A DNA stretch of 64,000 bases from Phenylobacterium sp. (lineage in GTDB: Bacteria; Pseudomonadota; Alphaproteobacteria; Caulobacterales; Caulobacteraceae). Numbering within the stretch: position 1 is the first letter of the stretch; each line of letters starts with the position of its first letter. Positions 4,738-34,375 of the stretch are shown here, piece by piece. The DNA lies in contig NZ_JAUYAW010000010.1 in the NCBI RefSeq assembly GCF_030693405.1, positions 1 through 64,000 on the forward strand, in the 5' to 3' direction. The notes under the pieces were generated by a model. It was given only the letters and a program-made list of their open reading frames with translations. It searched no databases and was not told where the DNA came from. Both the position numbers and the translations under genes were made by a program.

Positions 4738-4738
4738 C

Positions 4739-4774
4739 ACCCCTCAACTCCCCCCTCAACTCCCCCCTCAACTC
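4739..4774. repeat. Three tandem 12-bp repeats
   Basis: CCCCCTCAACTC occurs three times in a row (4739-4750 with one base changed, then 4751-4762 and 4763-4774), starting two bases after the cheR stop codon. Copy number may vary between strains. No function is evident. Confidence 0.85.
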
Positions 4775-4782
4775 CAGCCACG

Positions 4783-4803
4783 AAAAACCCCGCCGCGGCG
4801 GGG
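4783..4803 (-). terminator. Intrinsic terminator of the entericidin gene
   Basis: A perfect palindrome CCCCGCCGCGGCGGGG (4788-4803) is followed on the minus strand by TTTTT. It ends the minus-strand entericidin transcript and separates it from cheR. Confidence 0.8.
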
Positions 4804-4858
4804 CCGGAGCGGGGCTCGATCGTCAGAGACCAGCCCAGCGGCCGGTCGGCTGTCGGTC

Positions 4859-4996
4859 TTAGTTCTTGGCGTCTTCAGCGGTGCGCGTGACGGCGTCGCC
4901 GGCCGCGCCCACGTCCTGGCCAGCGCCGGAAATGGTGTTGCAGGCGGTCATGCCGAGGCTGGCGGTCAGGGCGGCCAGAAGGAAGAGCTTACGCAT
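4859..4996 (-). CDS. Entericidin-type small lipoprotein
   Basis: A 45-residue protein: a signal peptide with lipobox LGMTAC (Cys19), then NTISGAGQDVGAAGDAV, the conserved entericidin A/B tail. Entericidins are tiny lipoproteins known from E. coli as a toxin-antidote pair; in alphaproteobacteria they are often single and stress-induced, with unclear function. A GGAG site precedes the ATG. An exact EcfG promoter (5041-5065) ends about 45 bases upstream, inside the end of phyK, so this gene is probably switched on by the neighbouring stress system even though it lies downstream of phyK. Confidence 0.88.
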   Translation of the reverse strand: MRKLFLLAALTASLGMTACNTISGAGQDVGAAGDAVTRTAEDAKN

Positions 4997-5040
4997 TTTT
5001 GGGTCTCCGTTTTGGAAGGGAAGGCGGCGTCGCCAAGCTT

Positions 5041-5065
5041 AACGGTCAGGCGACCTGCTGGTTCC
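5041..5065 (-). promoter_or_regulatory. EcfG promoter of the entericidin gene
   Basis: Read on the minus strand, GGAAC (5065-5061), 16 bases, then CGTT (5044-5041). The -35 box lies inside the last codons of phyK and the -10 box just after its stop codon. The expected start, about 35 bases before the entericidin ATG, fits well. Confidence 0.8.
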
Positions 5066-6758
5066 CTTCCGAGGGCGCGGACATCGCGGGGTGGGGTGTC
5101 GGGAAGGCCAGACGAACGGTGACGCCCCCTGCGGCGTTGCGGACCAGCTCCGAGCGACCGCGCAGCTGGCGGGCGAAGGCGGTCATCAGGGTGCGGCCCA
5201 CACCGGTTCCCGCCAGGGCCTGATCGCTGGCGTCGCCGTCGTCGGCGATCTCCAGAACGGCCTCGTCGCCGCCGACCCGGAAGTCGACGCTCAGCGTGCC
5301 GCCGCGACCGGCGAAGGCGTGCTTCTGGGCGTTGGTGATCGCTTCCACCGCAAACAGGGCCAGAGGGGCCAGGCGGTCAGGATCGATCATCAAGGTATCG
5401 GCGTGCAGCTCCGTCCGCACCGCTGGCCCGTGCATGGATTCGCCGGCCACCAGCTGGGCGGTGAGTTCCTCGAGGAAGGGGCGCAGGTCCACGCGCTTGA
5501 GATCGGGGCCCTGGTACAGGGCGCGATAGACGAGGGCCAGGGCTGAAATCCGCTGGCGGGTGTCGGACATGGCGGCCCGGGCGCCCGGGTCGGTCAGGGC
5601 CCGCTGCTGCATGCTGAGCAGGCTGGAGATGACCTGCAGATTGTTCTTCACCCGGTGATGGATCTCCCGCATCAGGGCGTCCTTCTGGGCGAGGGAGTCG
5701 CGGAGCGAGGCGTCACGGCCGACGATGGCGTCGGCCATAGTCTCCATGGCCTCGGCCAGGTCGCGGATTTCCAGCGGCATGTCGCCAGCCTGGGCCGGTC
5801 TGACCGTCAGGCGGCCCCGGCCATAGAGGGCGGCGATCCGCTGCAGATAGATAAGCCAGCGCACAACCACCCGGTCCACGGCGATGAACACTGTCCCCAG
5901 CACGACGGCGAAGGTCAGAAGCGGCAGGATGAGCCCGGTCAGCGGGTTGAGGCGCGCCCAGGAAAAGAGCCCCGGCGAGTCCGCCGACAGGATGACGAAC
6001 AGGCTCTCGCCCACCAGAGGGGCGGCGATATAGACCCGGCGCTGTCCGTCAGTGCGACCATACCAGACATAGGACCCTTGCGCGTGGGTGCGCGCCTGCC
6101 AGCCGACCGGGGGCGGCGCGAAGGCGTCTGGGTCTGTCAGGCTGAGATATTCGCCGGCGGCGTCCAGCAGGGCCACTTCGGAGCCGGGGGGCAGGGCCGC
6201 CACGGTGGAGTTGGGTTGCAGGCTGGCCAGGGCGATCACCGCCGCCAGGGCGCCGTCGAACTCGCCGGCCGAATTGTAGGCAGGGACAACGGCCATGAGG
6301 GCCGGCTTATCGGAATAGACTGCGCCGGGATCGCGGGTGATGACCATTTCACCGCCAGTCTGCACCTGGTTGAACCAGGGGCGTTCGGCCCGCGCGGGGT
6401 CGGAAGGGACGGTTCCAGCCGCGCAGGCGACCCGGCCGTTGCGGTCAAAGCGGATCAGATTGTCATAGCCGGGGATACGTTCGGCGATCTCGGCCAGTCG
6501 CTGAGCACAGGCGAACCCCACCGAACCCGGCGCCAGGGTCTCAAGCAGAATGTCGGCGGACTCCATCCGCGCCCGGGCGTCGGCCGCGCTCCGCTGCGCC
6601 GCCGACCCCAGGGTTTCCCGGACCCGTTCAGCCTCGTGGTTGAAGGCCATGCCGCTCTGAATGGCCCCCAGGGCCAGAACCGGCAGCAGGGCTGCCGCCA
6701 TGGCGGCGATCAACCGGACGCGTATGGTGCCCAGAGAGGCCCAGGGATCCCCATTCAT
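5046..6758 (-). CDS. phyK: PhyK-type sensor histidine kinase (general stress response)
   Basis: A 570-residue inner-membrane kinase. Transmembrane segments lie near 17-38 and 273-296 and enclose a periplasmic sensor domain of about 230 residues. A cytoplasmic linker is followed by a HisKA_2 dimerisation domain with REIHHRVKNNLQ (His367/368) and a HATPase domain ending GTGVGRTLM. In Caulobacter, PhyK phosphorylates PhyR to start the EcfG-dependent stress response. It lies downstream of nepR-ecfG on the same strand, 20 bp after ecfG, so all three may form one transcript. Family and position agree. The signal sensed cannot be read from sequence. Confidence 0.93.
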   Translation of the reverse strand: MNGDPWASLGTIRVRLIAAMAAALLPVLALGAIQSGMAFNHEAERVRETLGSAAQRSAADARARMESADILLETLAPGSVGFACAQRLAEIAERIPGYDNLIRFDRNGRVACAAGTVPSDPARAERPWFNQVQTGGEMVITRDPGAVYSDKPALMAVVPAYNSAGEFDGALAAVIALASLQPNSTVAALPPGSEVALLDAAGEYLSLTDPDAFAPPPVGWQARTHAQGSYVWYGRTDGQRRVYIAAPLVGESLFVILSADSPGLFSWARLNPLTGLILPLLTFAVVLGTVFIAVDRVVVRWLIYLQRIAALYGRGRLTVRPAQAGDMPLEIRDLAEAMETMADAIVGRDASLRDSLAQKDALMREIHHRVKNNLQVISSLLSMQQRALTDPGARAAMSDTRQRISALALVYRALYQGPDLKRVDLRPFLEELTAQLVAGESMHGPAVRTELHADTLMIDPDRLAPLALFAVEAITNAQKHAFAGRGGTLSVDFRVGGDEAVLEIADDGDASDQALAGTGVGRTLMTAFARQLRGRSELVRNAAGGVTVRLAFPTPHPAMSAPSEGNQQVA

Positions 6759-6778
6759 GACCTGGCCCCCCCGGGCCG

Positions 6779-7372
6779 TCAGCGCGCGGTGCTGAGCCGT
6801 TCGGCGTCGGCCAGGATAGACCGCATCGCGTCGCCGGCCGCCCCGCCATCGCGGTCATAGGCGCCGGCCTCGAGAATGGCCTGCAAGGCGCGCCGCGCGC
6901 GGCTCACACGGCTTTTGACCGTGCCGACTGCGACGCCGCAGATCTCGGCGGCCTCTTCGTAGGCGAAGCCGCCGGCGCCCACCAGGATCAGCGCCTCGCG
7001 CTGCTCCGGCGGCAACATGCCAAGGCTCAGGCGGAGTTCGTCCAGCGCCACGGGCGCCTCGGGATCGTCCACCGCCACCAGAGTGCGTTCGGCGGCCTCC
7101 TGGTCGAGCTGGCTCTGGCGCCAGGACCGGCGCTTCTCGGAATAGAACTGGTTGCGCAGGATCATGAAGGTCCACGCCTTCATGTTGGTGCCCATCTGGA
7201 AGCTGGCGCGGGCGTCCCACGCCTTCATCATGGCGTCCTGCGCCAGGTCATCGGCGGCCGTGGCGTCGCCGCACAGGGTGCGGGCGAAGGCGCGCAGATG
7301 GGGGATCAGGGTGACGATTTCAGCCTTGAAGGCGTTGTCGAGGGCGGGGTCCCGGGGGCTGCGGTCGACCAT
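6779..7372 (-). CDS. ecfG: ECF sigma factor EcfG (SigT)
   Basis: A 197-residue ECF sigma factor. Region 2 contains FARTLCGDATAADDLAQDAMMKAWDA and region 4 contains LSLGMLPPEQREALILVGAGGFAYEEAAEICGVAVGTVKSRVSRAR. It lies between nepR and phyK, the defining context of the alphaproteobacterial general stress sigma factor (SigT in Caulobacter). It recognises GGAAC-N16/17-CGTT, a sequence found many times nearby. The start overlaps the nepR stop by one base, suggesting coupled synthesis with its anti-sigma factor. Confidence 0.96.
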   Translation of the reverse strand: MVDRSPRDPALDNAFKAEIVTLIPHLRAFARTLCGDATAADDLAQDAMMKAWDARASFQMGTNMKAWTFMILRNQFYSEKRRSWRQSQLDQEAAERTLVAVDDPEAPVALDELRLSLGMLPPEQREALILVGAGGFAYEEAAEICGVAVGTVKSRVSRARRALQAILEAGAYDRDGGAAGDAMRSILADAERLSTAR

Positions 7373-7566
7373 CAGCCGTTCTCCGCCGACTTGTCGGCGC
7401 GGCGCAGGATATCCAGAAATTCGTCCGGGACCGGCTCGTTGACCACCTCGTCGAACATCTGTCGCAGGCGCACGCCGATGGCCTGCTGGCGCAAGCGTGC
7501 TTCATCGAGGGCCGCGGCGTTCACGTCTGGCCCCGCCGAATGCTGTTCGGATTGGTGTTCGATCAT
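7372..7566 (-). CDS. nepR: Anti-sigma factor NepR
   Basis: As drawn, a 64-residue protein. The core LRQMFDEVVNEPVPDEFLDIL is the two-helix NepR signature that clamps EcfG and is itself captured by phosphorylated PhyR. The frame stays open to 7701, and a TTG at 7626 would give 84 residues. I prefer the ATG at 7566 because it matches the usual family length and lies downstream of both EcfG boxes, but its ribosome site (GGGG, two bases away) is poor. Overlaps ecfG by one base. Confidence 0.88.
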   Translation of the reverse strand: MIEHQSEQHSAGPDVNAAALDEARLRQQAIGVRLRQMFDEVVNEPVPDEFLDILRRADKSAENG

Positions 7567-7625
7567 ATCCCCGGCGTCTCGCTCAGGCGGCGAACGCCCC
7601 TTCTTGCTGTCATTCTGATCGCTCA

Positions 7626-7650
7626 AACGCCCGGCCCCCCGTCGAGTTCC
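7626..7650 (-). promoter_or_regulatory. Second EcfG-like promoter before nepR
   Basis: Minus strand: GGAAC (7650-7646), 16 bases, CGTT (7629-7626). It is an exact match to the EcfG consensus, closer to nepR than the divergent promoter. If used, transcripts would start near 7616, which excludes the TTG at 7626 as a start. About one such match is expected by chance in the window, so it needs evidence of use. Confidence 0.5.
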
Positions 7651-7689
7651 ATCAGCCCAGCCATAGCCGCCTGATCTCAGAATGTCGAA

Positions 7690-7715
7690 AACGTCAAACA
7701 TGGGGAACCGGTTCC
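7690..7715 (-). promoter_or_regulatory. EcfG promoter of nepR-ecfG (autoregulation)
   Basis: Minus strand: GGAAC (7715-7711), 17 bases, CGTT (7693-7690). Its -35 box shares the palindrome GGAACCGGTTCC (7704-7715) with the divergent phyR promoter. It would allow EcfG to drive its own operon, as known for this system in other alphaproteobacteria. Confidence 0.85.
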
Positions 7716-7728
7716 CTCCAGCGACGTT
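7704..7728 (+). promoter_or_regulatory. EcfG promoter of phyR
   Basis: Plus strand: GGAAC (7704-7708), 16 bases, CGTT (7725-7728), giving a transcript start near 7738 and a leader of about 65 bases before the phyR start at 7805. The -35 box is half of the palindrome shared with the nepR promoter. Confidence 0.87.
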
Positions 7729-7804
7729 TTGTGCGGTTGATGGATCAAGCGCGGCCGCAATCGATGCAGTCGCGTGTTCATCCTTGTCTCTACGGGAGGG
7801 GTCA

Positions 7805-8602
7805 TTGAGTCTTCTAGCCCGACTGGCGCCGCATCTGCCTTATGTCCGGCGCTATGCGCGTGCGCTCACCGGCGATCAAACAACTGGCGACCATTATGTC
7901 CGCGTGGCCCTTGAGGCCCTGGCTGCGGGCGAAAAGGTCCTGGAGGCGGGTCTGACCCCCAGGGTCGCGCTCTATCACGTGTTCCACACCATCTGGTGCT
8001 CCACCGGAGCTCAGCTGGAGTCGCCAGCGACCGACGGCGCCGACGACGACGCCAACTCACGGCTGATGCGCATTGCGCCTCGGTCTCGTCAGGCGTTCCT
8101 GCTGACCGCTCTGGAAGGCTTCACTCCCAGCGAGACCGCCCAGATTCTTGGGGCGAGTTTTGATGAGGTCGGCGCCTTGATCGCCGAGGCCCAGTCGGAG
8201 ATCGATGCTGAACTGGCCACCGACGTGCTCATCATCGAGGACGAACCGGTGATCGCGGCCGACATCGAGGCCCTGGTCAAGGAGCTGGGCCATACTGTGG
8301 TGGATATCGCCGCCACCCGGACCGAGGCTGTCGACGCCGTCAGCCGCAATCGCCCGGGTCTTGTCCTGGCCGACATCCAGCTGGCGGACGGGTCCTCTGG
8401 CATCGACGCGGTCAAGGACATCCTGGCCGAGCTCGATGTGCCGGTGATCTTCATCACCGCCTTCCCGGAGCGCCTGCTCACCGGCGAGCGCCCTGAGCCC
8501 ACCTTCCTGATCACCAAGCCCTTCCAGCCGGAGACGGTGAAGGCGGCGATCGGCCAGGCGCTTTTCTTCCATCCCCGCCGCAAGGCGAAGGCCGCAGCCT
8601 GA
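7805..8602 (+). CDS. phyR: PhyR anti-anti-sigma response regulator
   Basis: A 265-residue protein with an N-terminal ECF-sigma-like domain (about 1-135: SLLARLAPHLPYVRRYARAL and a region-4-like LEGFTPSETAQILG) and a C-terminal receiver domain (about 140-260) with phosphoacceptor Asp190 (LVLADIQLADG) and Lys in ITKPF. Phosphorylated PhyR mimics EcfG and pulls NepR away. The open frame begins at 7682, but that is upstream of the EcfG promoter; the TTG at 7805 has GGGAGGGG before it and matches where homologues start. Divergent from nepR-ecfG-phyK. Confidence 0.96.
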   Translation: MSLLARLAPHLPYVRRYARALTGDQTTGDHYVRVALEALAAGEKVLEAGLTPRVALYHVFHTIWCSTGAQLESPATDGADDDANSRLMRIAPRSRQAFLLTALEGFTPSETAQILGASFDEVGALIAEAQSEIDAELATDVLIIEDEPVIAADIEALVKELGHTVVDIAATRTEAVDAVSRNRPGLVLADIQLADGSSGIDAVKDILAELDVPVIFITAFPERLLTGERPEPTFLITKPFQPETVKAAIGQALFFHPRRKAKAAA

Positions 8603-8644
8603 CCCTAGCCCGCCGCCGGTCCCGTGAGGCGCCGAGCGGCGGGC

Positions 8645-8669
8645 GGAACAGCCCAGCTCATCAGACGTT
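8645..8669 (+). promoter_or_regulatory. EcfG promoter of the DUF1328 gene
   Basis: GGAAC (8645-8649), 16 bases, CGTT (8666-8669). The expected start lies about 48 bases before the ATG at 8727. It follows phyR by 42 bases, so the small gene has its own stress promoter as well as possible read-through. Confidence 0.82.
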
Positions 8670-8726
8670 CACAGACCCAGGCGGCGCCTCGCGCCGTTCT
8701 GGATCCACGGACCTGAGGAGCATGTC

Positions 8727-8900
8727 ATGCTGGGTTGGGCGATAGTGTTTGCGGTGCTAGCGGTTGCAGCCGGATATCTTGGTTTCATGAGCCTGGCAGG
8801 CTTGGCGGCCACAATCGCCAAGGTGCTCTTCGTGCTGTTCCTGGTCCTGCTGGTGGCGAGCTTCGTCGTGCGCGCCATTCGGGGTCAGTCCGTCGTTTGA
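8727..8900 (+). CDS. DUF1328 (YtjA-like) small membrane protein
   Basis: A 57-residue protein with two hydrophobic helices (about 4-22 and 30-50) and the family pattern LGWAIVFAVLAVAAGYLGF then AKVLFVLFLVL, ending in a basic tail. The DUF1328/YtjA family has no known function but is widespread and often stress-induced. A GAGGAG site precedes the ATG, and an exact EcfG promoter lies upstream. A shared hairpin terminator follows. Confidence in the family is good; no function is claimed. Confidence 0.9.
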   Translation: MLGWAIVFAVLAVAAGYLGFMSLAGLAATIAKVLFVLFLVLLVASFVVRAIRGQSVV

Positions 8901-8925
8901 GCCGCAGGCTCTTCGGGGCAAGACA

Positions 8926-8960
8926 AGAGGGCCGGAACAGATGTTCCGGCCCTCTCTTTG
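8926..8960. terminator. Bidirectional terminator hairpin
   Basis: A 13-bp stem AGAGGGCCGGAAC/GTTCCGGCCCTCT with a 4-base loop lies between the convergent DUF1328 gene and the 97-residue gene, followed by CTTTG on the plus strand. The GGAAC inside the stem has no matching -10 and is not a promoter. Confidence 0.75.
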
Positions 8961-8970
8961 TCTCAGAACA

Positions 8971-9264
8971 TCAGTTCGGTGCGTTCTGCGGCGGCTGAGT
9001 GGTCGGGCCGTCAGCGCCATCGGCTTCGGGGATCCGCGGGGCCGGCGCGTCCTGATTGAACTCAACCGCGTCGCTGGCTTGCCGCCCGGCATGGACATCG
9101 CCCTCTGCCAGGTCATCGGCGCGGAACAGCCAGGCGGCCATCAGGCCGACAAAGGCCAGGGTCACCGAGATCACCAGCACCAGCAACACGGGCCTGCCCA
9201 GGGCGCCCTGGCGCGCCGGCGTCGCCGGCATTTTCGGGGCGTTGTTGTCTTGAGGTTCGGCCAT
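8971..9264 (-). CDS. Small single-pass membrane protein, stress operon gene 2
   Basis: A 97-residue protein: a polar N-terminus (1-23), one transmembrane helix (about 24-47, PVLLVLVISVTLAFVGLMAAW), then a proline- and acid-rich tail likely outside the membrane. I recognise no family. It follows the 70-residue gene by 14 bases on the same strand and probably shares its EcfG promoter at 9540-9564. Confidence 0.7.
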   Translation of the reverse strand: MAEPQDNNAPKMPATPARQGALGRPVLLVLVISVTLAFVGLMAAWLFRADDLAEGDVHAGRQASDAVEFNQDAPAPRIPEADGADGPTTQPPQNAPN

Positions 9265-9278
9265 CAGGTGTTCCTTGG

Positions 9279-9491
9279 CTAGAATCGAATGAGATGCAGC
9301 GGGCTCGGCGCAGGCGGCGCGCCCGTGCCCGAATGGTCGGGCGCGGTAAGCGCGCCCAGAAGGGAAATGGCGCAGGCCATGCTCGCGACCGAGGTCAGAG
9401 CCACCATCCGGCGGCGTGTCCGCTGGGCGCGACGGGAGACGGTCTCCACGTAGGCGAGGCCGCCATGTGCGGCCATGTATCCCCTGATCAT
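9279..9491 (-). CDS. Small single-pass membrane protein, stress operon gene 1
   Basis: A 70-residue protein with a basic N-terminal half (RRAQRTRRRM) and one hydrophobic segment (about 31-49), then a short proline-rich tail. I recognise no family. The start could also be the ATG at 9476, five codons in. It is the first gene after an exact EcfG promoter, with a leader of about 39 bases, so stress induction is the best clue to its role. Confidence 0.65.
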   Translation of the reverse strand: MIRGYMAAHGGLAYVETVSRRAQRTRRRMVALTSVASMACAISLLGALTAPDHSGTGAPPAPSPLHLIRF

Positions 9492-9539
9492 CCTCGGCCC
9501 CGAGATTGGCGCAAAGCCAGGCTTTGCTGTTGGGGATAG

Positions 9540-9564
9540 AACGTCGGCGAAGCTTCTCCGTTCC
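9540..9564 (-). promoter_or_regulatory. EcfG promoter of the small-membrane-protein operon
   Basis: Minus strand: GGAAC (9564-9560), 16 bases, CGTT (9543-9540). It lies divergent to, and 60 bases from, the putative promoter of the GsrN-like RNA. Confidence 0.82.
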
Positions 9565-9623
9565 GCCTCAGACCCGGCTCGAGCGGCCGGTCTGAGGAAT
9601 CTGAAAAAACTTCGCAGCCAGTG

Positions 9624-9648
9624 GGAACGGGTCTCGATCAGGCGAGTT
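9624..9648 (+). promoter_or_regulatory. Near-consensus EcfG promoter of the GsrN-like RNA
   Basis: GGAAC (9624-9628), 16 bases, AGTT (9645-9648): one mismatch in the -10 box (CGTT in the consensus). It would start RNA near 9656, just before the strong hairpin of the small RNA. Confidence 0.6.
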
Positions 9649-9655
9649 ATTCAAC

Positions 9656-9780
9656 CTGCGGAGGCGGCGACGCCCCCCCCGACTTGAGGCTGGCGGTCAT
9701 TCGTCAGCCTGCCGCCTCCGCACCCCCCTTTTCTCGATGATACCCACTTCGGCGGACCCTCCCGGGTCCGCCTTTCTCTT
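9656..9780 (+). ncRNA. gsrN: Probable GsrN-type small RNA of the general stress response
   Basis: The 311-base gap 9492-9802 has no credible gene but holds all parts of a small-RNA gene. These are a near-consensus EcfG promoter (9624-9648), a long inverted repeat TGCGGAGGCGGC (9657-9668) with GCCGCCTCCGCA (9711-9722), an inner AGGCTGG/TCAGCCT pairing, a run of eight or nine C near 9671-9680, and an intrinsic terminator at 9751-9780. Length about 125 nt. Caulobacter GsrN is an EcfG-dependent RNA of similar size that binds katG mRNA through a C-rich 5' loop, as I recall. Identity is inferred from architecture and location, not alignment. Confidence 0.65.
9751..9780 (+). terminator. Intrinsic terminator of the small RNA
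   Basis: A 9-bp stem GGCGGACCC/GGGTCCGCC with loop TCCC, then TTTCTCTT. No plus-strand protein gene precedes it within 850 bases, so it most likely ends a non-coding transcript. It also lies at the 3' end of the convergent OmpA-like gene. Confidence 0.8.
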
Positions 9781-9802
9781 GTGGGCCAGTCTCTCTCGTG
9801 GG

Positions 9803-10255
9803 TCAGTCCGGCGTCGACAGGCGAAGCCGGATGTCCACCCGGCGGCGCATGGGCCGGTCAACGCCGTCCGGTCTCACCGCGTTCAGCTGTCCAGCAGCCT
9901 GCGTGTCAAAGGCCGCCTCAGGAAGGCCGGCCTCGGCCAGGGCCTGGGCCACCGTGGCGGCGCGGGCCTGCGACAGGGCCATGTTCGGCTCAGGCGCGCC
10001 GGTGGCGTCGGCCAGGCCCAGGACATCCACCCTGTCGACCGTGCAACCGGCCGCCTGCTGCGCTGTCGCCGCGATCAGGCCGCGCGCCTCGGGCCCCAAG
10101 TCCGCCGAGTCTGGTTCAAAATAGATCTCGGCAGAGACCAGATCGCAGCGGGAGTCCCGCGTCAGACTCTCCCGCCAGGTCTGGCAGCCACTCAGCACGA
10201 GTACCCCCGCCATGCAGACGCTCGTTGTAACCGCGGATTTCGTTGTCAGTTTCAT
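9803..10255 (-). CDS. OmpA-like domain lipoprotein
   Basis: A 150-residue protein. A signal peptide with lipobox VLSGC is followed by a compact OmpA-C-like domain (about 40-145: EIYFEPDSADLGPEARGLI, DVLGLADATG, LSQARAATVAQAL, RRRVDIRL) that normally binds peptidoglycan. The family residues Asp and Arg are present in the shortened form. I chose the ATG at 10255 over the GTG at 10264 because GAGGGG lies eight bases before the ATG. It probably tethers the outer membrane to the wall. No EcfG box was found upstream. Confidence 0.85.
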   Translation of the reverse strand: MKLTTKSAVTTSVCMAGVLVLSGCQTWRESLTRDSRCDLVSAEIYFEPDSADLGPEARGLIAATAQQAAGCTVDRVDVLGLADATGAPEPNMALSQARAATVAQALAEAGLPEAAFDTQAAGQLNAVRPDGVDRPMRRRVDIRLRLSTPD

Positions 10256-10296
10256 TCCCAGCACCCCTCAGTTCGCCCCTGGTTCTCCAGGGCGCG

Positions 10297-10329
10297 CAAA
10301 AAGGGGCGGCCAGCATGCTGACCGCCCCT
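10297..10329 (-). terminator. Intrinsic terminator of the glycine-zipper gene
   Basis: Stem AGGGGCGGTCAGC/GCTGGCCGCCCCT with one mismatch, followed on the minus strand by TTTTT, between the glycine-zipper lipoprotein and the OmpA-like gene. Confidence 0.75.
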
Positions 10330-10355
10330 GAAATCACTTTGCCTTGCCGCGCCTG

Positions 10356-10700
10356 TCAGTAGCGGGGCTGGCCGTCTTCCCAGTAATAGCGCTGGCTAGC
10401 GGAGTCATAGAAGTAGTAGCGACCCGCTCGCTCATCATAGTACTGGCGGCGATTGGGGACATCGGCGCCGCAGCCGCCGTCCTCACGGCACCCCTTGTAG
10501 GCGCCCGCCGCGCCGCCGGCGACCGCGCCGATGGCGGCGCCCGTGGCAGCGCTGCCCGAGCCGACATTGTTGCCAATGACCGCGCCGGCCAGAGCGCCGA
10601 GGGCCGCGCCGCCAGCGGCGTTACGTTCCACCGTGCCGGTAGAGGTGCAGGCCGCGGCCAGGAGGCCTGCGCCCGCGACAGCGATAAGAGACTTCATCAT
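10356..10700 (-). CDS. Glycine-zipper lipoprotein
   Basis: A 114-residue protein with a lipoprotein signal (LLAAACTST), a glycine-zipper segment (about 27-70: GGAALGALAGAVIGNN, GAAIGAVAGGAAGAYKGC) and a tyrosine-rich C-terminus (YYDERAGRYYFYDSASQRYYWEDG). Such zippers insert into or pack against membranes. The start is the first of two ATGs, eight bases after GGAG. An exact EcfG promoter (10735-10759) lies upstream, so it belongs to the stress regulon by sequence. Function beyond envelope association is unknown. Confidence 0.85.
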   Translation of the reverse strand: MMKSLIAVAGAGLLAAACTSTGTVERNAAGGAALGALAGAVIGNNVGSGSAATGAAIGAVAGGAAGAYKGCREDGGCGADVPNRRQYYDERAGRYYFYDSASQRYYWEDGQPRY

Positions 10701-10734
10701 TTCCAGGCTCTCCTTGAGCTTGTGCCGACAATCA

Positions 10735-10759
10735 AACGCCCCCCGCCGTGTCGGGTTCC
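10735..10759 (-). promoter_or_regulatory. EcfG promoter of the glycine-zipper lipoprotein
   Basis: Minus strand: GGAAC (10759-10755), 16 bases, CGTT (10738-10735). Expected start about 25 bases before the gene. It is divergent from another EcfG promoter at 10801. Confidence 0.82.
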
Positions 10760-10800
10760 CGTCCCGGGCGCCCCGCAGGCTCCGCCGCACCTCCGCCAAG

Positions 10801-10825
10801 GGAACCGCCATCGCGCAATACCGTT
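10801..10825 (+). promoter_or_regulatory. EcfG promoter of the membrane-protein / lipid-kinase / phosphoesterase operon
   Basis: GGAAC (10801-10805), 16 bases, CGTT (10822-10825), with an expected start near 10835, 26 bases before the ATG at 10861. Confidence 0.82.
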
Positions 10826-10860
10826 AGCTTGGCCGCAGAGATCATGATGGAGCGCCTCAA

Positions 10861-11277
10861 ATGTGGCCCCGATTTGGAAGACCCCGCCGCGATGGCGCGC
10901 CGCTGAACGTGGCGCCTCCCACAGCTCCCCTGGCTGTCGATCCGCGTGAGGTGGACAGGGCCTATGAACAGGGGCTCGCTGAGGGTCGCAGGGCAGAGCG
11001 CCGCCGTCGCAGTCATCCCATACGCAATCTGTTGATCGGCCTTGTGGCCCTGGCTGGCGGCGCCATGCTTGGCGTGGCGGCCTGGCACGGGTCGTTCGGC
11101 AAGGGGGGCGAAGTGGTGGATCAGAAACTGGCGGTGGCCGCAGATCGCGCCGAACCGACCTTCCGGGCCGCAGCTGGAGAAGCCGGGGCCGTCCTCAGCG
11201 GCGCCGGACGTGAGCTGCAGCCTGGCGAAGGCGCCGGCGAGCCCGCCGATCCCGACCTTAGCGAACCAGCGCGTTAG
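10861..11277 (+). CDS. Single-pass membrane protein of unknown function
   Basis: A 138-residue protein. A basic, proline-rich N-terminus leads to an EQGLAEGRRAERRRRSHP stretch and one transmembrane helix (about 55-75, NLLIGLVALAGGAMLGVAA), followed by an alanine/glutamate-rich outer tail. I recognise no family. It is the first gene of an EcfG-driven group with a lipid kinase 9 bases downstream and a metallophosphoesterase after that. The start ATG has GGAG eight bases upstream. Confidence 0.7.
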   Translation: MWPRFGRPRRDGAPLNVAPPTAPLAVDPREVDRAYEQGLAEGRRAERRRRSHPIRNLLIGLVALAGGAMLGVAAWHGSFGKGGEVVDQKLAVAADRAEPTFRAAAGEAGAVLSGAGRELQPGEGAGEPADPDLSEPAR

Positions 11278-11286
11278 GCCGCGACT

Positions 11287-12207
11287 GTGATCGAGGGCGT
11301 GCGCAAGATCGAAGTGGTTCTGAATCTGGCCTCCGGCAGCGTTTCGGCTGATGCGCCACAGCAGGCTGAGGAAATCCTCGCCCAGTACGGGGTGAGCGCG
11401 CGGGTCTGCGCCTCATCCTCCGGCGACCTGGAGCAGTGCCTCCGGTCCGCCCTAGATGCAGGTCCCGATCTGCTGGCGGTGGTGGCCGGCGACGGCACAG
11501 CCCGCAGCGCCGCAGAGATGTGCGGTCCTGACGGCCCCCTGTTTGCGCCCCTGGCGGGGGGCACCATGAACATGCTGCCGCACGCGATCTACGGCGCAAG
11601 GCCTTGGCAGGAGGCGCTGGTCGACATTCTTGACAGCGGGGTCGAGCGTCCCCTGGCTGGTGGAACGGTGGACGGGAAGTTGTTCCTTGTGGCCGCCATC
11701 CTCGGCGCTCCGGCCCTCTGGGCCCCGGCCCGGGAAGCCATGCGCGAGGGCAAGGCCCGTCTCGCCCTGGAGCGGGCGCGCACGGCCTGGTCGCGGGCCT
11801 TCTCCAGCCGCCTTCGCTATGTGATCGGGGCTGGTCCCAGAGAAAAGGGTGAGGCCGTGATCTTCATGTGCCCCACCGCCAGCCGGCGTCTGTCCGACGA
11901 TGAGCAGGCGCTGGAGGCCGCCGGCCTCGATCTCAATGGCGCCCTGGAGGCCTTCCGGCTCGGGCTGCACGCGGCGGTGGGCGACTGGCGCGACGACCCC
12001 GCGGTGGATCTCGGACTTTGCCGCGAGGCGCGGGTCTGGGCGCCGCGCGGCATACCGGCCTTGCTGGATGGCGAGAGCGTCCAGCTGGGCGCCTTCGCCC
12101 AGGTCGCCTTCGTGCCCCATGTGGCCCGGGTGCTGGCGCCTCGCGATGAACCGGCCGGCGCCGAGGGGGAGATTCTGGACGCCGCCGTCAACCCGGCGGC
12201 CGCATGA
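11287..12207 (+). CDS. Diacylglycerol kinase-like lipid kinase
   Basis: A 306-residue protein of the DAGK/YegS/sphingosine-kinase family. The nucleotide-binding GDGTARS motif lies near residue 69 and the GGTMNMLP loop near 90; a C-terminal beta domain follows. These enzymes phosphorylate lipid hydroxyls such as diacylglycerol, and the substrate cannot be told from sequence. The start is a GTG. The stop overlaps the next gene by four bases (ATGA), so kinase and phosphoesterase are made together, behind an EcfG promoter. Confidence 0.85.
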   Translation: MIEGVRKIEVVLNLASGSVSADAPQQAEEILAQYGVSARVCASSSGDLEQCLRSALDAGPDLLAVVAGDGTARSAAEMCGPDGPLFAPLAGGTMNMLPHAIYGARPWQEALVDILDSGVERPLAGGTVDGKLFLVAAILGAPALWAPAREAMREGKARLALERARTAWSRAFSSRLRYVIGAGPREKGEAVIFMCPTASRRLSDDEQALEAAGLDLNGALEAFRLGLHAAVGDWRDDPAVDLGLCREARVWAPRGIPALLDGESVQLGAFAQVAFVPHVARVLAPRDEPAGAEGEILDAAVNPAAA

Positions 12208-12986
12208 TCCGCATCGCCCAGCTTTCGGACATCCACTTTGGCGACGAGAACCTGCCGGCTGTAGAAGCGGCGACGACGCTCTTGCAGGAGACGCCGCCTG
12301 ATCTCGTCCTGATCACCGGCGACATCACCCGCTTTGCGGAGGTCGGAGAGCTTGAGGCCGCACGGGCCTGGCTCGAGCGGCTGCCGCGGCCGTGGCTGGT
12401 CACGCCTGGCAATCACGACGCGCCCTATCTGGCCTGGCACGAGCGGATTTTTACGCCTTTCGCCCGGTTTGAGCGGATCATCGGTCCGGCCTGGAGCCAG
12501 TCGCATCTGGATGAACAGGTGGCCGTGGCCGGCGTGAACACCGCCCGGGGCGCCCAGTGGCGTCTGAACTGGTCGAAGGGCCAGATTTCTCGCGACCAGG
12601 TGCGCACCGCCGTCAGCTTCCTGGACACCGCCCCTGCGAACCGTCTGCGGCTGGTGGCGCTGCATCATCCGCTCACCGAGATGATCGCTGGCCCCATGAC
12701 CGCCAAGGTCTGGGGCGGGGTCGACGCCGCCCGGGCCTTCAGCGAGGCGCGGGTCGACCTGGTCCTTTCGGGGCACGTTCACGCGCCGTTCGCCCTGCCT
12801 TACCCGTTCGCCGATGAACGCACCTATGCGGTGGGATGTGGCACCCTGTCGGTGCGAGAGCGCGGCGTTCCCGCCAGCTTCAACATGATTGAGGCCGACG
12901 ATGAGGCCATCCGGATCAAGGCCCTGACCTGGTCGGGCAGCCAGTTCGAAGCCCATCGGACCTGGTCGCTGGATCGCCGGCTCTAG
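12204..12986 (+). CDS. Calcineurin-like metallophosphoesterase
   Basis: A 260-residue protein with the full set of metal-binding motifs in order: SDIHFGD, ITGDITR, TPGNHDAP, LHHPL and SGHVHAPF. The two-metal centre hydrolyses phosphoesters; relatives include 3',5'-cyclic nucleotide and lipid phosphatases. Translational coupling to a lipid kinase hints at a phospholipid or lipid-phosphate substrate, but this is inference from context. Ends before a strong terminator shared with sodB. Confidence 0.85.
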   Translation: MIRIAQLSDIHFGDENLPAVEAATTLLQETPPDLVLITGDITRFAEVGELEAARAWLERLPRPWLVTPGNHDAPYLAWHERIFTPFARFERIIGPAWSQSHLDEQVAVAGVNTARGAQWRLNWSKGQISRDQVRTAVSFLDTAPANRLRLVALHHPLTEMIAGPMTAKVWGGVDAARAFSEARVDLVLSGHVHAPFALPYPFADERTYAVGCGTLSVRERGVPASFNMIEADDEAIRIKALTWSGSQFEAHRTWSLDRRL

Positions 12987-13021
12987 TGGAGCCCGGACCC
13001 CGCGCCGGCCCCTCCGATACG

Positions 13022-13053
13022 AAAAATCCCGCGCCTTTCGGGCGCGGGATTTA
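13022..13053. terminator. Bidirectional terminator
   Basis: A perfect 12-bp stem AAATCCCGCGCC/GGCGCGGGATTT with flanking A and T bases between the convergent phosphoesterase and sodB genes. Confidence 0.85.
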
Positions 13054-13092
13054 GACGTGGCTGACTATTTCGACCCAGACCGGCTCCGGGGA

Positions 13093-13734
13093 TCAGGCGG
13101 CCGGAACGGGATGGCGCCAGGCCTGCCCCTTGCCACGGGCGGCGTCGTACTGGGCGGCGGCGAAGGTCCAGTGGGGCAGGTTGTCGAACCAGGCTTCCAC
13201 GAAGGCCTTCCGATCATTCTGGTGGTCCAGATAGTAGGCGTGTTCCCAGACGTCGCAGGTCAGCAGCGGCGTCAGGCCCTGATGGGTCAGCAGGTCGTCA
13301 GCGTCGTGAGTCGACAGCACCTTCAACTTGTCGCCCTCGGCGGCCAGCCAGCCCCAGCCCGAGGCGAAGTGGTTCACAGACTCGGTGACAAAGGCTTCCT
13401 TCAGCTTGTCCAGGCCGCCGAAGTCCCGGTCAATGGCCGCGGCCAGGTCGCCCTGCGGCTGCTGCTTCTCGCCGATCATGCAGGTCCAGAAGAAGGTGTG
13501 GTTGTAGGTCTGGGCGGCGTTGTTGAAGAGCTTCTTCTTGGCCGGATCGCCGGCGGCGGCCTTGACCACCTCTTCCAGGGAGGCAGGGGTCTCGCCTGAG
13601 GCCTTCAGCAGGTCGTTGAGCGTGTCCACATACTTGGCGTGATGCTTGTCGTGGTGAAACCGCATCGTCTCGGCGGAGATCACCGGGGACAGGGCGTCAT
13701 AAGCGTAGGGAAGGTCCGGAAGCTTGAACATCAT
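13093..13734 (-). CDS. sodB: Fe/Mn superoxide dismutase
   Basis: A 213-residue protein. The metal ligands are in place: His in MRFHHDKHH, His in QTYNHTFFW, and Asp/His in CDVWEHAYYLDH. It removes superoxide in the cytoplasm. The pattern WGWLAAEGDKLKVLSTHDAD suggests the iron or cambialistic type, but metal choice is not certain. Two adjacent ATGs exist; the second, at 13731, has the better spacing from GAGGA. I find no EcfG box upstream, although the gene sits inside the stress cluster. Confidence 0.95.
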   Translation of the reverse strand: MMFKLPDLPYAYDALSPVISAETMRFHHDKHHAKYVDTLNDLLKASGETPASLEEVVKAAAGDPAKKKLFNNAAQTYNHTFFWTCMIGEKQQPQGDLAAAIDRDFGGLDKLKEAFVTESVNHFASGWGWLAAEGDKLKVLSTHDADDLLTHQGLTPLLTCDVWEHAYYLDHQNDRKAFVEAWFDNLPHWTFAAAQYDAARGKGQAWRHPVPAA

Positions 13735-13756
13735 AGGTCCTCAGGCAGGCTGATAC

Positions 13757-13788
13757 AAAAAAGGGACGCGCCCGATCAGGGGCGCGCC
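13757..13788 (-). terminator. Terminator of the DUF883 operon
   Basis: Minus strand stem CGCGCCC/GGGCGCG followed four bases later by TTTTTT, placed between the end of the 131-residue gene and sodB, so it insulates sodB from the upstream stress operon. Confidence 0.7.
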
Positions 13789-13868
13789 GTGAGGGATCGG
13801 AGCCGGTCCGTCTCCGGCGCGAGCCAACAGAGCTCTGGATGAGCCTGGCCGCGCCGGAGTAACCAGAT

Positions 13869-14264
13869 CTAGTGACGTCCTGAGGACCGGCCCGCGAGGT
13901 AGGCGCTGAGGGCGGTGGCGATCACCTTGGGATTCTTCACCGCCAGGACGCCAGCCGCCAGGGTGGCCAGAAGCGCAGCTCCCCCCGCGGCCATGGGATG
14001 CTGACGGGCCAGATCAAAGGCCCGGGCCGCCAGGCTGTCGTCCTGCTGCAGGGCAGGCAGGGACGGACCCTTACCGCGAACCGCCAGAACAGCGCCGCCC
14101 AGGATCAGGATACAAACCAGGGCGAGCACCCCCGCCGCGCCTGCCGCGCCGAGAAGCGGCGTAAGCACAGCGAACAGGGCGAAACCGGCCGCCGCGACGC
14201 CCATGAGCGTCAGGGCGGTCAGGGCCGCCAGGCCGATGACCGCAAGAAGCGCCTTCTCGATCAA
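13869..14264 (-). CDS. Membrane protein of the DUF883 operon
   Basis: A 131-residue protein with hydrophobic helices near 7-32, 38-62 and 92-108, a short polar loop, and the C-terminus SAYLAGRSSGRH. It resembles holin-like YqjE-type partners of YqjD/ElaB proteins in size and context, but I cannot confirm the family. Its start overlaps the DUF883 gene stop by four bases, so the two are coupled and share the EcfG promoter at 14633. Confidence 0.7.
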   Translation of the reverse strand: MIEKALLAVIGLAALTALTLMGVAAAGFALFAVLTPLLGAAGAAGVLALVCILILGGAVLAVRGKGPSLPALQQDDSLAARAFDLARQHPMAAGGAALLATLAAGVLAVKNPKVIATALSAYLAGRSSGRH

Positions 14265-14578
14265 CGGCGGCCGCCAGCGAGCAGCAGGCCGATCACCACG
14301 CCGACACCGACGGCGACGCCCGTCGCCGCCAGCGGACGTTCACGCACGTGTTCGACCACGTAGCGCTGAGCTTCTTCAATCTGCTCGCCGGCCGTGTCGG
14401 CATAGGCGCGCGACTGAGCGCGAATTTGTTCCACGCCTTCCTGAACCGCCCGTTCGAAATGCTTGGCGGCGTCACGGAAGGTTTGCTGTGCGTCCTCGGC
14501 CAGGACCTGAGCGGAAGTCGCCGCGGAGGTGGCGGCGGCCTTGGCTTCGTTCACGGCTCGGTCAGAAGCGTTCGACAT
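14261..14578 (-). CDS. DUF883 (YqjD/ElaB-like) stress protein
   Basis: A 105-residue protein with an alanine-rich amphipathic helical region (about 1-80) and a C-terminal transmembrane helix with glycines (TGVAVGVGVVIGLLLAGGRR), the pattern of YqjD/ElaB proteins. In E. coli these tail-anchored proteins bind ribosomes in stationary phase; the role here is unproven. A TGGAG site precedes the ATG, and an exact EcfG promoter with 17-base spacing lies 55 bases upstream. Confidence 0.85.
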   Translation of the reverse strand: MSNASDRAVNEAKAAATSAATSAQVLAEDAQQTFRDAAKHFERAVQEGVEQIRAQSRAYADTAGEQIEEAQRYVVEHVRERPLAATGVAVGVGVVIGLLLAGGRR

Positions 14579-14632
14579 GCAGTATCTCCAGAGGTTCGAG
14601 GTCCCCGCACGCCTCGCACAGGGCTCCGCCAG

Positions 14633-14658
14633 AACGTCACATAGGCCACAGCGGTTCC
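14633..14658 (-). promoter_or_regulatory. EcfG promoter of the DUF883 operon
   Basis: Minus strand: GGAAC (14658-14654), 17 bases, CGTT (14636-14633). A second GGAAC lies just upstream but has no matching -10 box. Confidence 0.82.
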
Positions 14659-14744
14659 AGGTTCCAGGTCAGGGTGCGTCAAATCTTCGCAGGTTCTGCA
14701 CGGTTCTTGTCGCATCGCTGCGCGGCCGGCGTTAGGCTTTGACC

Positions 14745-16163
14745 ATGGTCGATGACCCGAGGCGCGCGCGCCTGAACATGGAGCATCTCGAACTGGCGCT
14801 CCAGACCGCGGGTCTGGGGGAGTTCCAGTATGATGTGCCTGGCGATTTCTGCATCGTCAGCGACCGAATGGCGGCCATCACCGGCGGGGCGGCCGGCTAT
14901 CTTCCCGCCGACGGCGGTCGCGCCCTCCTGCCGCGAATCCACCCTGACGATCTGGAAGACACCCTGCGGCAGATGCTGGCGGGCTTCGAGGCTGACGACC
15001 GCTATGAGGTGGAGTGCCGCGCCGCCCCGCGACCGGACCATGGAGTGGTCTGGCTTCGGGTCGTCGGCCAGCGGATCCGTGACGCCCGGGGCGAGATCCA
15101 GGGGGTCATCGGGATCGTCGAGGACATCACCGCCCGCAAGCTCGAGGAACAGCAACGCCACGCCCTGATGGCCGAGATCGACCACAGGGTGAAGAACGTC
15201 CTGGCGACGGTCCAGGCCCTGGCGGTGCAGACCGCCAAGCGAACCTCCTCCATGGAGGGGTTCCTGCAGACCTTCCTCGGCCGCCTGAAATCCATGGGCT
15301 CGGCCAACGAACTGCTCACCGCCGCCCGCTGGCGTGGCGCGGCCATCGACCATCTGGTGGCCGCCGAACTCGGCGGGCTGGCGCCAGGTCAGACCCGGTG
15401 GGAGGGGCCGGAGCTGTTCCTCACCCCGCGCGCCGCCAATGCGGTCTCGCTGGCCCTGCACGAACTGGCTACCAACGCCCTGAAATACGGCGCCTTGTCG
15501 GTTGAGACCGGCCACGTGGACGTGGTCTGGCGCGCGGCGCCTTCGGGGGGCTTTTCCCTGGACTGGACGGAGTCGGGCGGGCCAGTGGTCGCCCCGCCTG
15601 GCCGGACCGGGTTTGGCTCCACCCTGCTCAGCCAGGTGACCGGCCGGGAGCTCAATGGCCATACCCGTCTGGACTTCCCCCCCACGGGGGCCCGGGCGCG
15701 TCTGGAGGCTGGGGCCGCGGCTGTGGTCGCCCGTCCGGAAACCGTGCCGGACGCGCCCCTCGGCCGCGCCCCCGAGGCCGCCGCCGGGCCTGCCGGTCCG
15801 GTCAGTCTGGCCGGCGCCCGGGTGCTCATCGTCGAGGACGCCGCGCTCCTGGCTATGGAACTGGAAACCGGGCTTTCGGAGGCCGGCGCAGTGGTGGTGG
15901 GCCCTGCCTATGAGCTTGAGGAGGCCCTCGCCCTCCTGGACCAGCCTCTCGACGCCGCCGTCCTGGACGCCAATCTCAACGGCCTTTCCGTTGGGCCGGT
16001 GGCCGATATCCTGGCCGAACGGGGCGTCCCCTTCGTTTTCGCCACCGGCTATGGCGATGCGGGCGGCGCCCCCAGCGGCTTCGATGCGCCGGTGATCCGC
16101 AAACCCTATGACGTCACCCAGGTGACCGCCGCGGTCGCCGATCTGCTGGCGCCGCGGACTTAG
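14745..16163 (+). CDS. PAS-HWE histidine kinase with C-terminal receiver domain
   Basis: A 472-residue cytoplasmic protein with no membrane segment. A PAS/PAC domain (about 12-130) lacks an obvious LOV cysteine motif. An HWE kinase core has DHRVKNVLATVQ (His147), the HELATNALKYGALS N-box and the WTESGGP motif, and a receiver domain (about 357-470) carries Asp408. HWE kinases frequently feed the PhyR stress pathway. Divergent from the EcfG-driven DUF883 operon and 6 kb from phyR. The start is the ATG at 14745; a TTG two codons upstream is possible. Signal and partner are not visible. Confidence 0.88.
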   Translation: MVDDPRRARLNMEHLELALQTAGLGEFQYDVPGDFCIVSDRMAAITGGAAGYLPADGGRALLPRIHPDDLEDTLRQMLAGFEADDRYEVECRAAPRPDHGVVWLRVVGQRIRDARGEIQGVIGIVEDITARKLEEQQRHALMAEIDHRVKNVLATVQALAVQTAKRTSSMEGFLQTFLGRLKSMGSANELLTAARWRGAAIDHLVAAELGGLAPGQTRWEGPELFLTPRAANAVSLALHELATNALKYGALSVETGHVDVVWRAAPSGGFSLDWTESGGPVVAPPGRTGFGSTLLSQVTGRELNGHTRLDFPPTGARARLEAGAAAVVARPETVPDAPLGRAPEAAAGPAGPVSLAGARVLIVEDAALLAMELETGLSEAGAVVVGPAYELEEALALLDQPLDAAVLDANLNGLSVGPVADILAERGVPFVFATGYGDAGGAPSGFDAPVIRKPYDVTQVTAAVADLLAPRT

Positions 16164-34349: not shown

Positions 34350-34375
34350 GGAACTTCGTAAGGGGGCCTAGCGTT
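34350..34375 (+). promoter_or_regulatory. EcfG promoter of the OmpA/glycine-zipper lipoprotein
   Basis: GGAAC (34350-34354), 17 bases, CGTT (34372-34375), expected start about 23 bases before the ATG at 34408. It lies 20 kb from the main stress cluster. Confidence 0.78.

Follow-up and report, generated by a model that had tools for sequence, protein, structure and literature searches.

A general stress response locus of Phenylobacterium-type Caulobacteraceae with candidate EcfG promoters before its regulators and neighbouring genes

Genes and EcfG-type sites of the locus

In the general stress response (GSR) of alphaproteobacteria, stress leads to phosphorylated PhyR, PhyR titrates the anti-sigma factor NepR, and the freed extracytoplasmic function (ECF) sigma factor, EcfG (SigT), directs RNA polymerase to GGAAC-N16/17-CGTT promoters. 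PhyK is the proposed PhyR kinase in Caulobacter. The locus described here occupies positions 5041 to 14658 of the window, the 64,000-nucleotide stretch of Phenylobacterium sp. contig NZ_JAUYAW010000010.1 that was analysed. It is very probably a chromosomal GSR locus of Phenylobacterium-type Caulobacteraceae, vertically inherited, with candidate EcfG promoters before the regulators and neighbouring targets. To judge by its genes, it is the standard PhyR-NepR-EcfG-PhyK locus of Caulobacteraceae and mostly ordinary, with an unusual phyR/nepR control region. The PhyR-NepR-EcfG system, its motif and the nearby small RNA (sRNA) gene gsrN have already been published (PMC5869019, PMC7083833, PMC3073932).

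The defining features of the alphaproteobacterial GSR core that a sequence can test are all present (Table 1). PhyR features a sigma-like domain and a receiver (PF22029, PF22233, PF00072), NepR (PF18557) is divergent from phyR and adjoins ecfG, which follows it with an overlap at TGATG, the kinase is of the HWE/HisKA_2 PhyK type and scores above the NCBIfam equivalog cut-off, and GGAAC-N16/17-CGTT sites precede the regulators. The most likely start of phyR is the TTG at 7805; a second TTG lies 21 bases before it, and the ATG of the longest open reading frame (ORF), 7682, sits upstream of phyR's own promoter.

A preliminary description of this stretch reported nine exact sites (5041, 7626, 7690, 7704, 8645, 9540, 10735, 10801 and 14633), and all nine are exact, with the coordinates and strands it gave. 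Two additional exact sites lie in the window, at 34350 + and 63365 +, and the former likely marks another target outside the cluster. Shuffling determined that 64 kb holds a mean of 0.51 and a maximum of 3 exact sites by chance (100 shuffles). The whole genome (3,395,245 bases, 85 contigs) holds 51 exact sites versus 22 matches to the reversed pattern. The sites were also said to be denser here than elsewhere, and an equal density across the genome is excluded: 9 of the 51 fall within 0.28% of the genome, and the 9,618-base stretch holds 9 versus 0.14 expected (binomial P for at least 9, 3e-14). In 31 relatives for which the region was fetched, 260/1,558 exact sites fall in the corresponding ~10-kb stretch. 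The reversed-pattern control is uneven among genomes, exceeding the motif in several genomes that lack the GSR and in some that have it, and therefore genome-wide counts were not used to contrast these two kinds of genome.

The sites had been placed 10-80 bases from gene starts. This holds for eight of them, in which the -10 box is 34-76 bases from the favoured start codon, and not for site 7690, which is 123 bases from the short NepR ATG. The proposed aim at the envelope stands for most of the small products, which look like membrane proteins or lipoproteins, and is too narrow for the sRNA, the lipid-kinase-like protein and the phosphoesterase, which are also candidate targets. PhyR titrating NepR would free EcfG for ten promoters within 9.6 kb: one for phyR, two for nepR-ecfG, one with a single mismatch for gsrN, and six for small envelope-type or lipid-metabolism genes. 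Gene identities, sites, site conservation and joint absence were read from sequence, and we infer that EcfG transcribes each gene here.

The comparison set consisted of the window and 111 other phyR loci, from which 7 duplicates were dropped. The distinct loci comprise 45 of Phenylobacterium type (window included), 15 of Caulobacter type, 24 of Brevundimonas type and 21 that were ungrouped. The first group is so named because of the nearest PhyR relatives found: the closest named one comes from a Caulobacteraceae metagenome-assembled genome (99% identity), and after it come numerous records from Phenylobacterium, which are 85-89% identical. A site-gene pair was scored when an exact site lies within 200 bp upstream of the ortholog in the 45 Phenylobacterium-type loci. 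The site precedes both regulators, NepR and PhyR, in 45/45 loci, and it precedes the entericidin gene in 41/44, the glycine-zipper gene in 37/38, the 138-amino-acid (138-aa) gene in 29/32 and the DUF883 gene in 30/41. The best DUF1328 match has an exact site in 39/39 loci, although in some loci this match is another DUF1328 copy at a different place in the cluster. The fast-diverging 70-aa gene has the site in all 9 loci where it was matched; a similar ORF with a GPFSYFP-like end follows a site of this type in many other loci. Control neighbours rarely have a site: PhyK 0/44, EcfG 0/45, phosphoesterase 0/42, SodB 0/19, the gene after DUF883 0/18, HWE kinase 0/40, CheR 1/42 and OmpA 2/42. Among downstream operon genes the counts are 2/37 for the 97-aa gene and 10/42 for the lipid kinase. 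Against this pattern, the exact site is absent before DUF883 in 11/41 loci and before entericidin in 3/44. In Caulobacter-type loci the site precedes the lipid kinase in 12/13, and the 138-aa gene was matched in just one. The cluster of EcfG-type sites round EcfG's own regulators that the preliminary description proposed thus recurs as the same site-gene pairs in Phenylobacterium-type loci and largely in Caulobacter-type loci. Table 1 of PMC3073932 lists CC_3473, the entericidin homolog that adjoins sigT in C. crescentus, as SigT-dependent and carrying the motif.

None of the OmpA, SodB, HWE kinase and CheR genes, which lie in the stretch or next to it, has its own exact site in the window. 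Flanking the locus, window positions 3548-4737 (+) carry a CheY-like ORF (by eye) and the gene of a CheR methyltransferase (Pfam), again without an exact site. In the near relatives L123 and L171 a second DUF1328 gene with its own site follows the phosphoesterase gene (site +5472 from phyR in L123); window positions 12986-13093 lack this gene, and the window's genome shows one DUF1328 match.

Table 1. Features of the GSR locus and of one outlying site (window coordinates)
Feature	Position	Strand	Evidence
Entericidin-family small lipoprotein	4859..4996	-	Pfam PF08085, 24.9 bits, cut-off 23.3
EcfG-type site for entericidin	5041..5065	-	exact
PhyK sensor kinase (HisKA_2; weak dCache match)	5046..6758	-	NCBIfam PhyK equivalog 808.9 bits, cut-off 750
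EcfG, ECF sigma factor (SigT by position)	6779..7372	-	family-model matches
NepR anti-sigma factor, short form from ATG	7372..7566	-	Pfam PF18557, 58.8 bits
Possible 20-codon in-frame N-terminal extension of NepR from TTG 7626	7567..7626	-	60 nt, open in 44/44 scored Phenylobacterium-type loci; Shine-Dalgarno-like sequence before TTG
Candidate nepR-ecfG proximal EcfG-type promoter P2	7626..7650	-	exact
Probable nepR-ecfG distal EcfG-type promoter P1	7690..7715	-	exact here; conserved elements GGAAC-N17-NGTTTT
Candidate phyR EcfG-type promoter	7704..7728	+	exact
Inverted repeat GGAACCGGTTCC, interleaved -35 elements of phyR and nepR P1	7704..7715	.	GGAAC-NN-GTTCC
PhyR anti-anti-sigma response regulator, TTG start	7805..8602	+	Pfam PF22029, PF22233, PF00072
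EcfG-type site for DUF1328	8645..8669	+	exact; conserved
DUF1328 membrane protein	8727..8900	+	Pfam PF07043
97-aa protein, one hydrophobic stretch (by eye), presumed second operon gene	8971..9264	-	no Pfam/NCBIfam family; matched in 37/45 loci
70-aa protein, one hydrophobic stretch (by eye), first operon gene	9279..9491	-	no Pfam family; NCBIfam match 17.2 bits, cut-off 100
EcfG-type site for 70-aa/97-aa operon	9540..9564	-	exact
A-tract upstream of gsrN -35, UP-element-like	9604..9609	+	
Candidate gsrN promoter GGAAC-N16-AGTT	9624..9648	+	one mismatch
gsrN sRNA	9660..9772	+	Rfam RF01529 (CC3552), 79.4 bits, gathering score 50
OmpA-family protein without site	9803..10255	-	family match
Glycine-zipper lipoprotein-like protein	10356..10697	-	Pfam PF13441
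EcfG-type site for glycine-zipper gene	10735..10759	-	exact
EcfG-type site for lipid-kinase operon	10801..10825	+	exact
138-aa protein, one hydrophobic stretch (by eye)	10861..11277	+	no family
Diacylglycerol/lipid-kinase-like protein	11287..12207	+	Pfam PF00781
Calcineurin-like phosphoesterase	12204..12986	+	Pfam PF00149
Small protein after DUF883, hydrophobic stretches (by eye)	13869..14264	-	no family
DUF883 protein, C-terminal glycine-zipper region	14261..14578	-	Pfam PF19029
EcfG-type site for DUF883 operon	14633..14658	-	exact
Site of likely target outside cluster, 32 bases before 224-aa lipoprotein-like ORF	34350..34375	+	exact

gsrN, the nepR leader and the candidate phyR/nepR promoters

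The preliminary description lacked gsrN and its promoter, a site that an exact search misses because of one mismatch in the -10 element. The RF01529 model was matched in Caulobacter vibrioides only among 14 control genomes. The gsrN stretch folds far better than its shuffles (z -6.6); its fold combines a long stem with a C-rich segment that stays unpaired and, at the 3' end, a hairpin with a U run behind it. The element is taken to be gsrN because its C-rich segment is the complement of the sequences listed in a table of PMC5869019 for RNAs co-purifying with GsrN, and because Caulobacteraceae, Phenylobacterium among them, are described there as having gsrN close to the GSR regulators. It resembles GsrN in its above-gathering score, its C-rich unpaired segment, its terminator-like hairpin and its location close to the GSR locus, and its candidate EcfG-type promoter agrees with the consensus in GGAAC and N16 and departs from it in the -10 box, AGTT for CGTT. 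In C. crescentus, gsrN depends on sigT and lies elsewhere than the GSR locus (PMC5869019), whereas here it lies inside.

The gsrN promoter differs in its -10 box, which is NGTT rather than CGTT in 41/44 Phenylobacterium-type loci with gsrN in place (TGTT 19, GGTT 13, AGTT 9, CGTT 3). CGTT is found in 12/13 Caulobacter-type and 9/11 Brevundimonas-type loci where gsrN was found. An A5+ tract at most 30 bases upstream of the -35 element is present in 40/44 gsrN promoters versus 2/275 of the remaining promoters in these loci, and in 35/44 gsrN promoters a G follows GGAAC. The A-tract is also found in 13/13 Caulobacter-type and 6/11 Brevundimonas-type loci and is therefore older than the relaxed -10 box, which, in our reading, would be helped by the UP-like tract. 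Selection against C in this box was considered and rejected: on a 55-row tree the rows with a scored base require 12 base changes and 4 changes between C and non-C, and one early loss of C with three returns would fit relaxed constraint or later drift and not avoidance.

Two candidate promoters, P1 and P2, precede nepR. In 44/44 scored Phenylobacterium-type loci (L065 dropped) the short NepR ATG is preceded, at exactly 60 bases, by an in-frame TTG that overlaps the CGTT -10 box of P2, as CG-TTG or CGT-TTG. P2 transcripts should begin downstream of this TTG, and P1 and P2 would then give long and short NepR, respectively, with P2 starting inside the long frame; we hold this arrangement to be possible and somewhat short of probable. 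The competing explanation, that the 60-nt stretch is only a structured or GsrN-pairing leader and that NepR starts at ATG alone, has about an even chance. The fixed in-frame position of the TTG speaks against a mere leader. In-frame stops are lacking, versus 41/44 and 23/44 in the other two frames, most of the 41 being thought due to TGA within TTGA. A Shine-Dalgarno-like sequence precedes the TTG in 35/45 loci versus 39/274 at the same place in other promoters, and a comparison of the two starts found it at the TTG in 36/44 and at the short-NepR ATG in 16/44. The reading frame of the extension has the best BLOSUM score of the three, equalled in 16/600 column permutations in the Phenylobacterium-type loci and in 20/600 in the Caulobacter-type loci.

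Several results weigh against a long NepR. This coding signal is modest (column-permutation P about 0.03), and the fraction of synonymous differences is not raised, at 0.27 in frame versus 0.32 and 0.38 in the other frames. The AGG-GGG codons of the extension are fixed at the nucleotide level, which suggests constraint on the RNA rather than on coding. Among 14 scored Caulobacter-type loci the TTG lies at 66 bases in 11 and at 57-72 in three, and a Shine-Dalgarno-like sequence precedes it in just 1; most scorable Brevundimonas-type loci have no in-frame TTG. Additionally, translational coupling may blunt any isoform effect because nepR and ecfG overlap.

The view of the stretch as a leader only draws further on the sequence GGGGGCG, which is complementary to the gsrN C-rich segment and occurs in the nepR leaders of 33/45 Phenylobacterium-type (1.6 expected), 13/15 Caulobacter-type (0.5 expected) and 0/24 Brevundimonas-type loci, and on the co-purification of nepR RNA with Caulobacter GsrN described in PMC5869019. 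The leader consensus fold also beats all 200 column shuffles in stability. A conserved fold is not claimed (-4.02 versus a shuffle mean of -0.35), as it has only 5 pairs and almost no covariation. Duplex energies did not single out nepR, phyR leaders being nearly as good (means of -24.2 for nepR and -23.1 for phyR). The evidence that gsrN may be linked to nepR is thus the conserved GGGGGCG and the published co-purification, and the former is also explained by the possible coding extension.

An unusual feature of the control region is the phyR promoter, whose -35 element forms the left arm of an inverted repeat, GGAAC-NN-GTTCC. This repeat is present in 45/45 Phenylobacterium-type, 0/15 Caulobacter-type and 0/22 scored Brevundimonas-type loci; its centre makes GGAACCGGTTCC, a perfect 12-bp palindrome, in 38/45 loci and differs in 7/45. 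On the opposite strand the right arm forms a -35 element, followed by NGTTTT at exactly 17 bases. The AAC of this reverse -10 box is found at spacer 17 in 43/45 loci and hardly ever at any other spacing in the range 10-25. The P1 spacer is unconserved, and a conserved block reaches to the expected transcription start. These elements suggest that P1 is probably a real distal nepR promoter. The phyR promoter and P1 should not be able to be occupied together, one polymerase excluding the other, because their -35 elements interleave.

There are some discrepancies regarding P1 as a promoter. Its full CGTT box is found in just 11/45 loci, the first box base being free, and in Caulobacter-type loci, which have no GTTCC arm, a recognisable counterpart of the P1 -10 block occupies the same position, so that part of the -10 conservation may have another cause. 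The inverted repeat might instead be the operator of a dimeric regulator, or it might have arisen as a by-product of phyR's promoter, P1 being no promoter, and the perfect palindrome in most loci would suit this, as would that counterpart block and a -10 box that is not CGTT in 34/45 loci, 2 of which have also lost the GTT. We consider this alternative unlikely. Against it, both GGAAC arms stay in the 7 loci with a different centre, and the reverse AAC keeps its exact spacing across an unconserved spacer. Moreover, the EcfG-regulon promoters reported for Sphingopyxis include TGTT and GGTT boxes, with TGTT giving less transcription than CGTT in vitro (PMC7083833), and gsrN of the same genomes has non-CGTT boxes too.

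The shared -35 pattern occurs in 16/249 genomes of the order and in 10/385 of the class, counts in which both sets include the window's own genome and the order set four further genus members. Outside the genus it was found at 21 places, of which 20 were read (all but that of G287). Many lie inside long ORFs, one lies between ecfG and phyR (G140, with CGTT on the ecfG side), and a pair, in G132 and G269, precedes a lipid-kinase operon; these occurrences appear to be mostly chance. A literature search found no description of a -35 element shared by phyR and nepR.

Taken together, the phyR/nepR region could be a toggle driven by the sigma factor, in which EcfG-polymerase would occupy either phyR or P1, P2 would yield only short NepR and EcfG, and gsrN would add a post-transcriptional layer on nepR. 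This scheme is speculative, and we would not expect all of it to hold.

Background matches and inheritance of the cluster

The reading of the locus as a GSR cluster was weighed against chance and against horizontal acquisition. Some of the nine sites could be chance matches, for the genome has 22 reversed-pattern matches, so that a fair part of its 51 sites is probably background, and site 63365 + has no convincing gene start. However, eight of the nine are kept before the same gene in most scored loci, and P1, although exact in just 11/45, has conserved elements, which makes chance a very improbable explanation for any of them.

We read the locus as a vertically kept regulon cluster because its G+C content is ordinary (0.678 versus 0.687 for the window) and because the three targets that were scored genome-wide for joint absence (gsrN, DUF1328 and phosphoesterase) are mostly missing from members of the genus that have neither PhyR nor NepR. 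In a phyR+ecfG tree of 55 loci, a branch with support 80 has all 44 Phenylobacterium-type rows on one side. Genome G010 has the right half of its cluster at a distance of 700 kb, where five sites are kept within 3.4 kb, and proximity is therefore not needed for site retention. Fourteen of the 60 genus genomes lack both PhyR and NepR, and nine of these are at least 93% complete. In the 14, gsrN is present in 1 versus 45/46 of the others, DUF1328 in 3 versus 45/46, and the phosphoesterase ortholog (at least 58%) in 1 versus 43/46; as a control, a SodB relative is present in 59/60 genomes, weak in several. The exceptions are G008, which has all three targets, is 73% complete and probably lacks the regulators by an assembly gap, and G015 and G019, which keep DUF1328. 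When G008 is grouped with the genomes that have the GSR, Fisher tests give P values of 3e-9 (DUF1328) and 1e-10 (phosphoesterase), from related genomes whose trials are not independent. The thirteen genomes without PhyR, NepR and gsrN are G003, G006, G007, G014, G015, G019, G030, G035, G039, G043, G047, G048 and G053; they mostly lack DUF1328 and the phosphoesterase as well, and 12/13 are 3.3 Mb or smaller. The whole GSR has apparently been lost in them, and the absences fit loss.

The preliminary description regarded the stretch as a co-inherited stress island; in the sense of a horizontally acquired island uniting regulators and targets this is rejected and hardly credible, since the dense clustering of sites and targets and their joint absence from some genomes are outweighed by the ordinary composition, a gene order much alike in the Phenylobacterium-type and Caulobacter-type loci compared, the grouping of the loci on one side of the tree, the ability of the cluster to be split, 0/18 proteins tested from 3910 to 16163 in mobile-element families, and the distance of 4.6 kb between the locus edge and the window's only tRNA (202-278).

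Related loci were observed elsewhere. Genome G000 encodes a second ECF sigma factor (L193, C33:55550-56169) that is 46% identical to EcfG and has its own exact site 50 bases before the ATG, with another exact site facing the opposite direction; it resembles the SigT-to-SigU step described for C. crescentus (PMC3073932). L213 (G019 C104), from a genome without PhyR and NepR, has two exact sites, a distant EcfG-like factor (45%) and matches of DUF1328, entericidin-like and 138-aa-like type, and is possibly another GSR-type cluster. In L204 and L214 (G132 and G269, of the same order and outside the family), DUF1328, entericidin and the lipid-kinase/phosphoesterase pair lie together; each ~4-kb stretch read has six exact sites and no phyR match.

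Known systems and biological meaning

In C. crescentus these four regulators are also present and are arranged as they are here (CC_3474 to CC_3477), with the entericidin homolog CC_3473 and its SigT motif beside the kinase gene (PMC3073932). Caulobacter loci, among them L081, L082, L085 and L088, have a similar gene order, and Caulobacter-type loci differ by the absence of the inverted GTTCC arm at phyR. In the EcfG promoters reported for Sphingopyxis granuli GGAAC is nearly fixed and 14 different -10 boxes are found, CGTT being the most frequent (PMC7083833); here, by contrast, it is particular genes whose -10 boxes vary, and this pattern is retained across the genus.

Bidirectional promoters of E. 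coli (Warman et al. 2026) also feature a symmetric element at which polymerase binds in two orientations, one excluding the other, with little competition at basal activity and more as transcription rises (PMC12825309). The shared element there is the -10 box, whereas here the ECF -35 boxes interleave and the -10 boxes are separate, so that the hallmark of a single symmetric -10 used both ways is absent. The phyR/P1 region may work like a bidirectional promoter and would fall outside that class. Unlike the E. coli examples, its -35 boxes point to an anti-anti-sigma gene and to anti-sigma and sigma genes.

The target families overlap with those of RpoS, which is an unrelated sigma factor with unrelated signalling. 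ElaB of E. coli, which we take to be of the DUF883 type, belongs in this comparison, and the window's DUF883 protein scores 28.2 bits against the ElaB model (cut-off 139). ElaB is reported as RpoS-regulated (PMC6389858), and the small ORFs of the Salmonella RpoS regulon include ecnB, osmB and ytjA (DUF1328) (PMC5437024). This overlap would be a convergence of two unrelated master regulators on small envelope proteins.

How the GSR sets the ratio of sigma, anti-sigma and anti-anti-sigma factors is not obvious, given that transcription of all three genes seems to depend on the sigma factor itself. An overlapping promoter pair kept across the genus, together with a promoter on a start codon, would give a direct and testable answer, and if the toggle holds, promoter choice would determine how much anti-sigma factor is made and in which form. 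The genes of the conserved cluster also make up a short list of likely core targets of the GSR, several of them without known function, and the relatives from which the regulators and the tested targets are missing can be compared as natural deletion strains.

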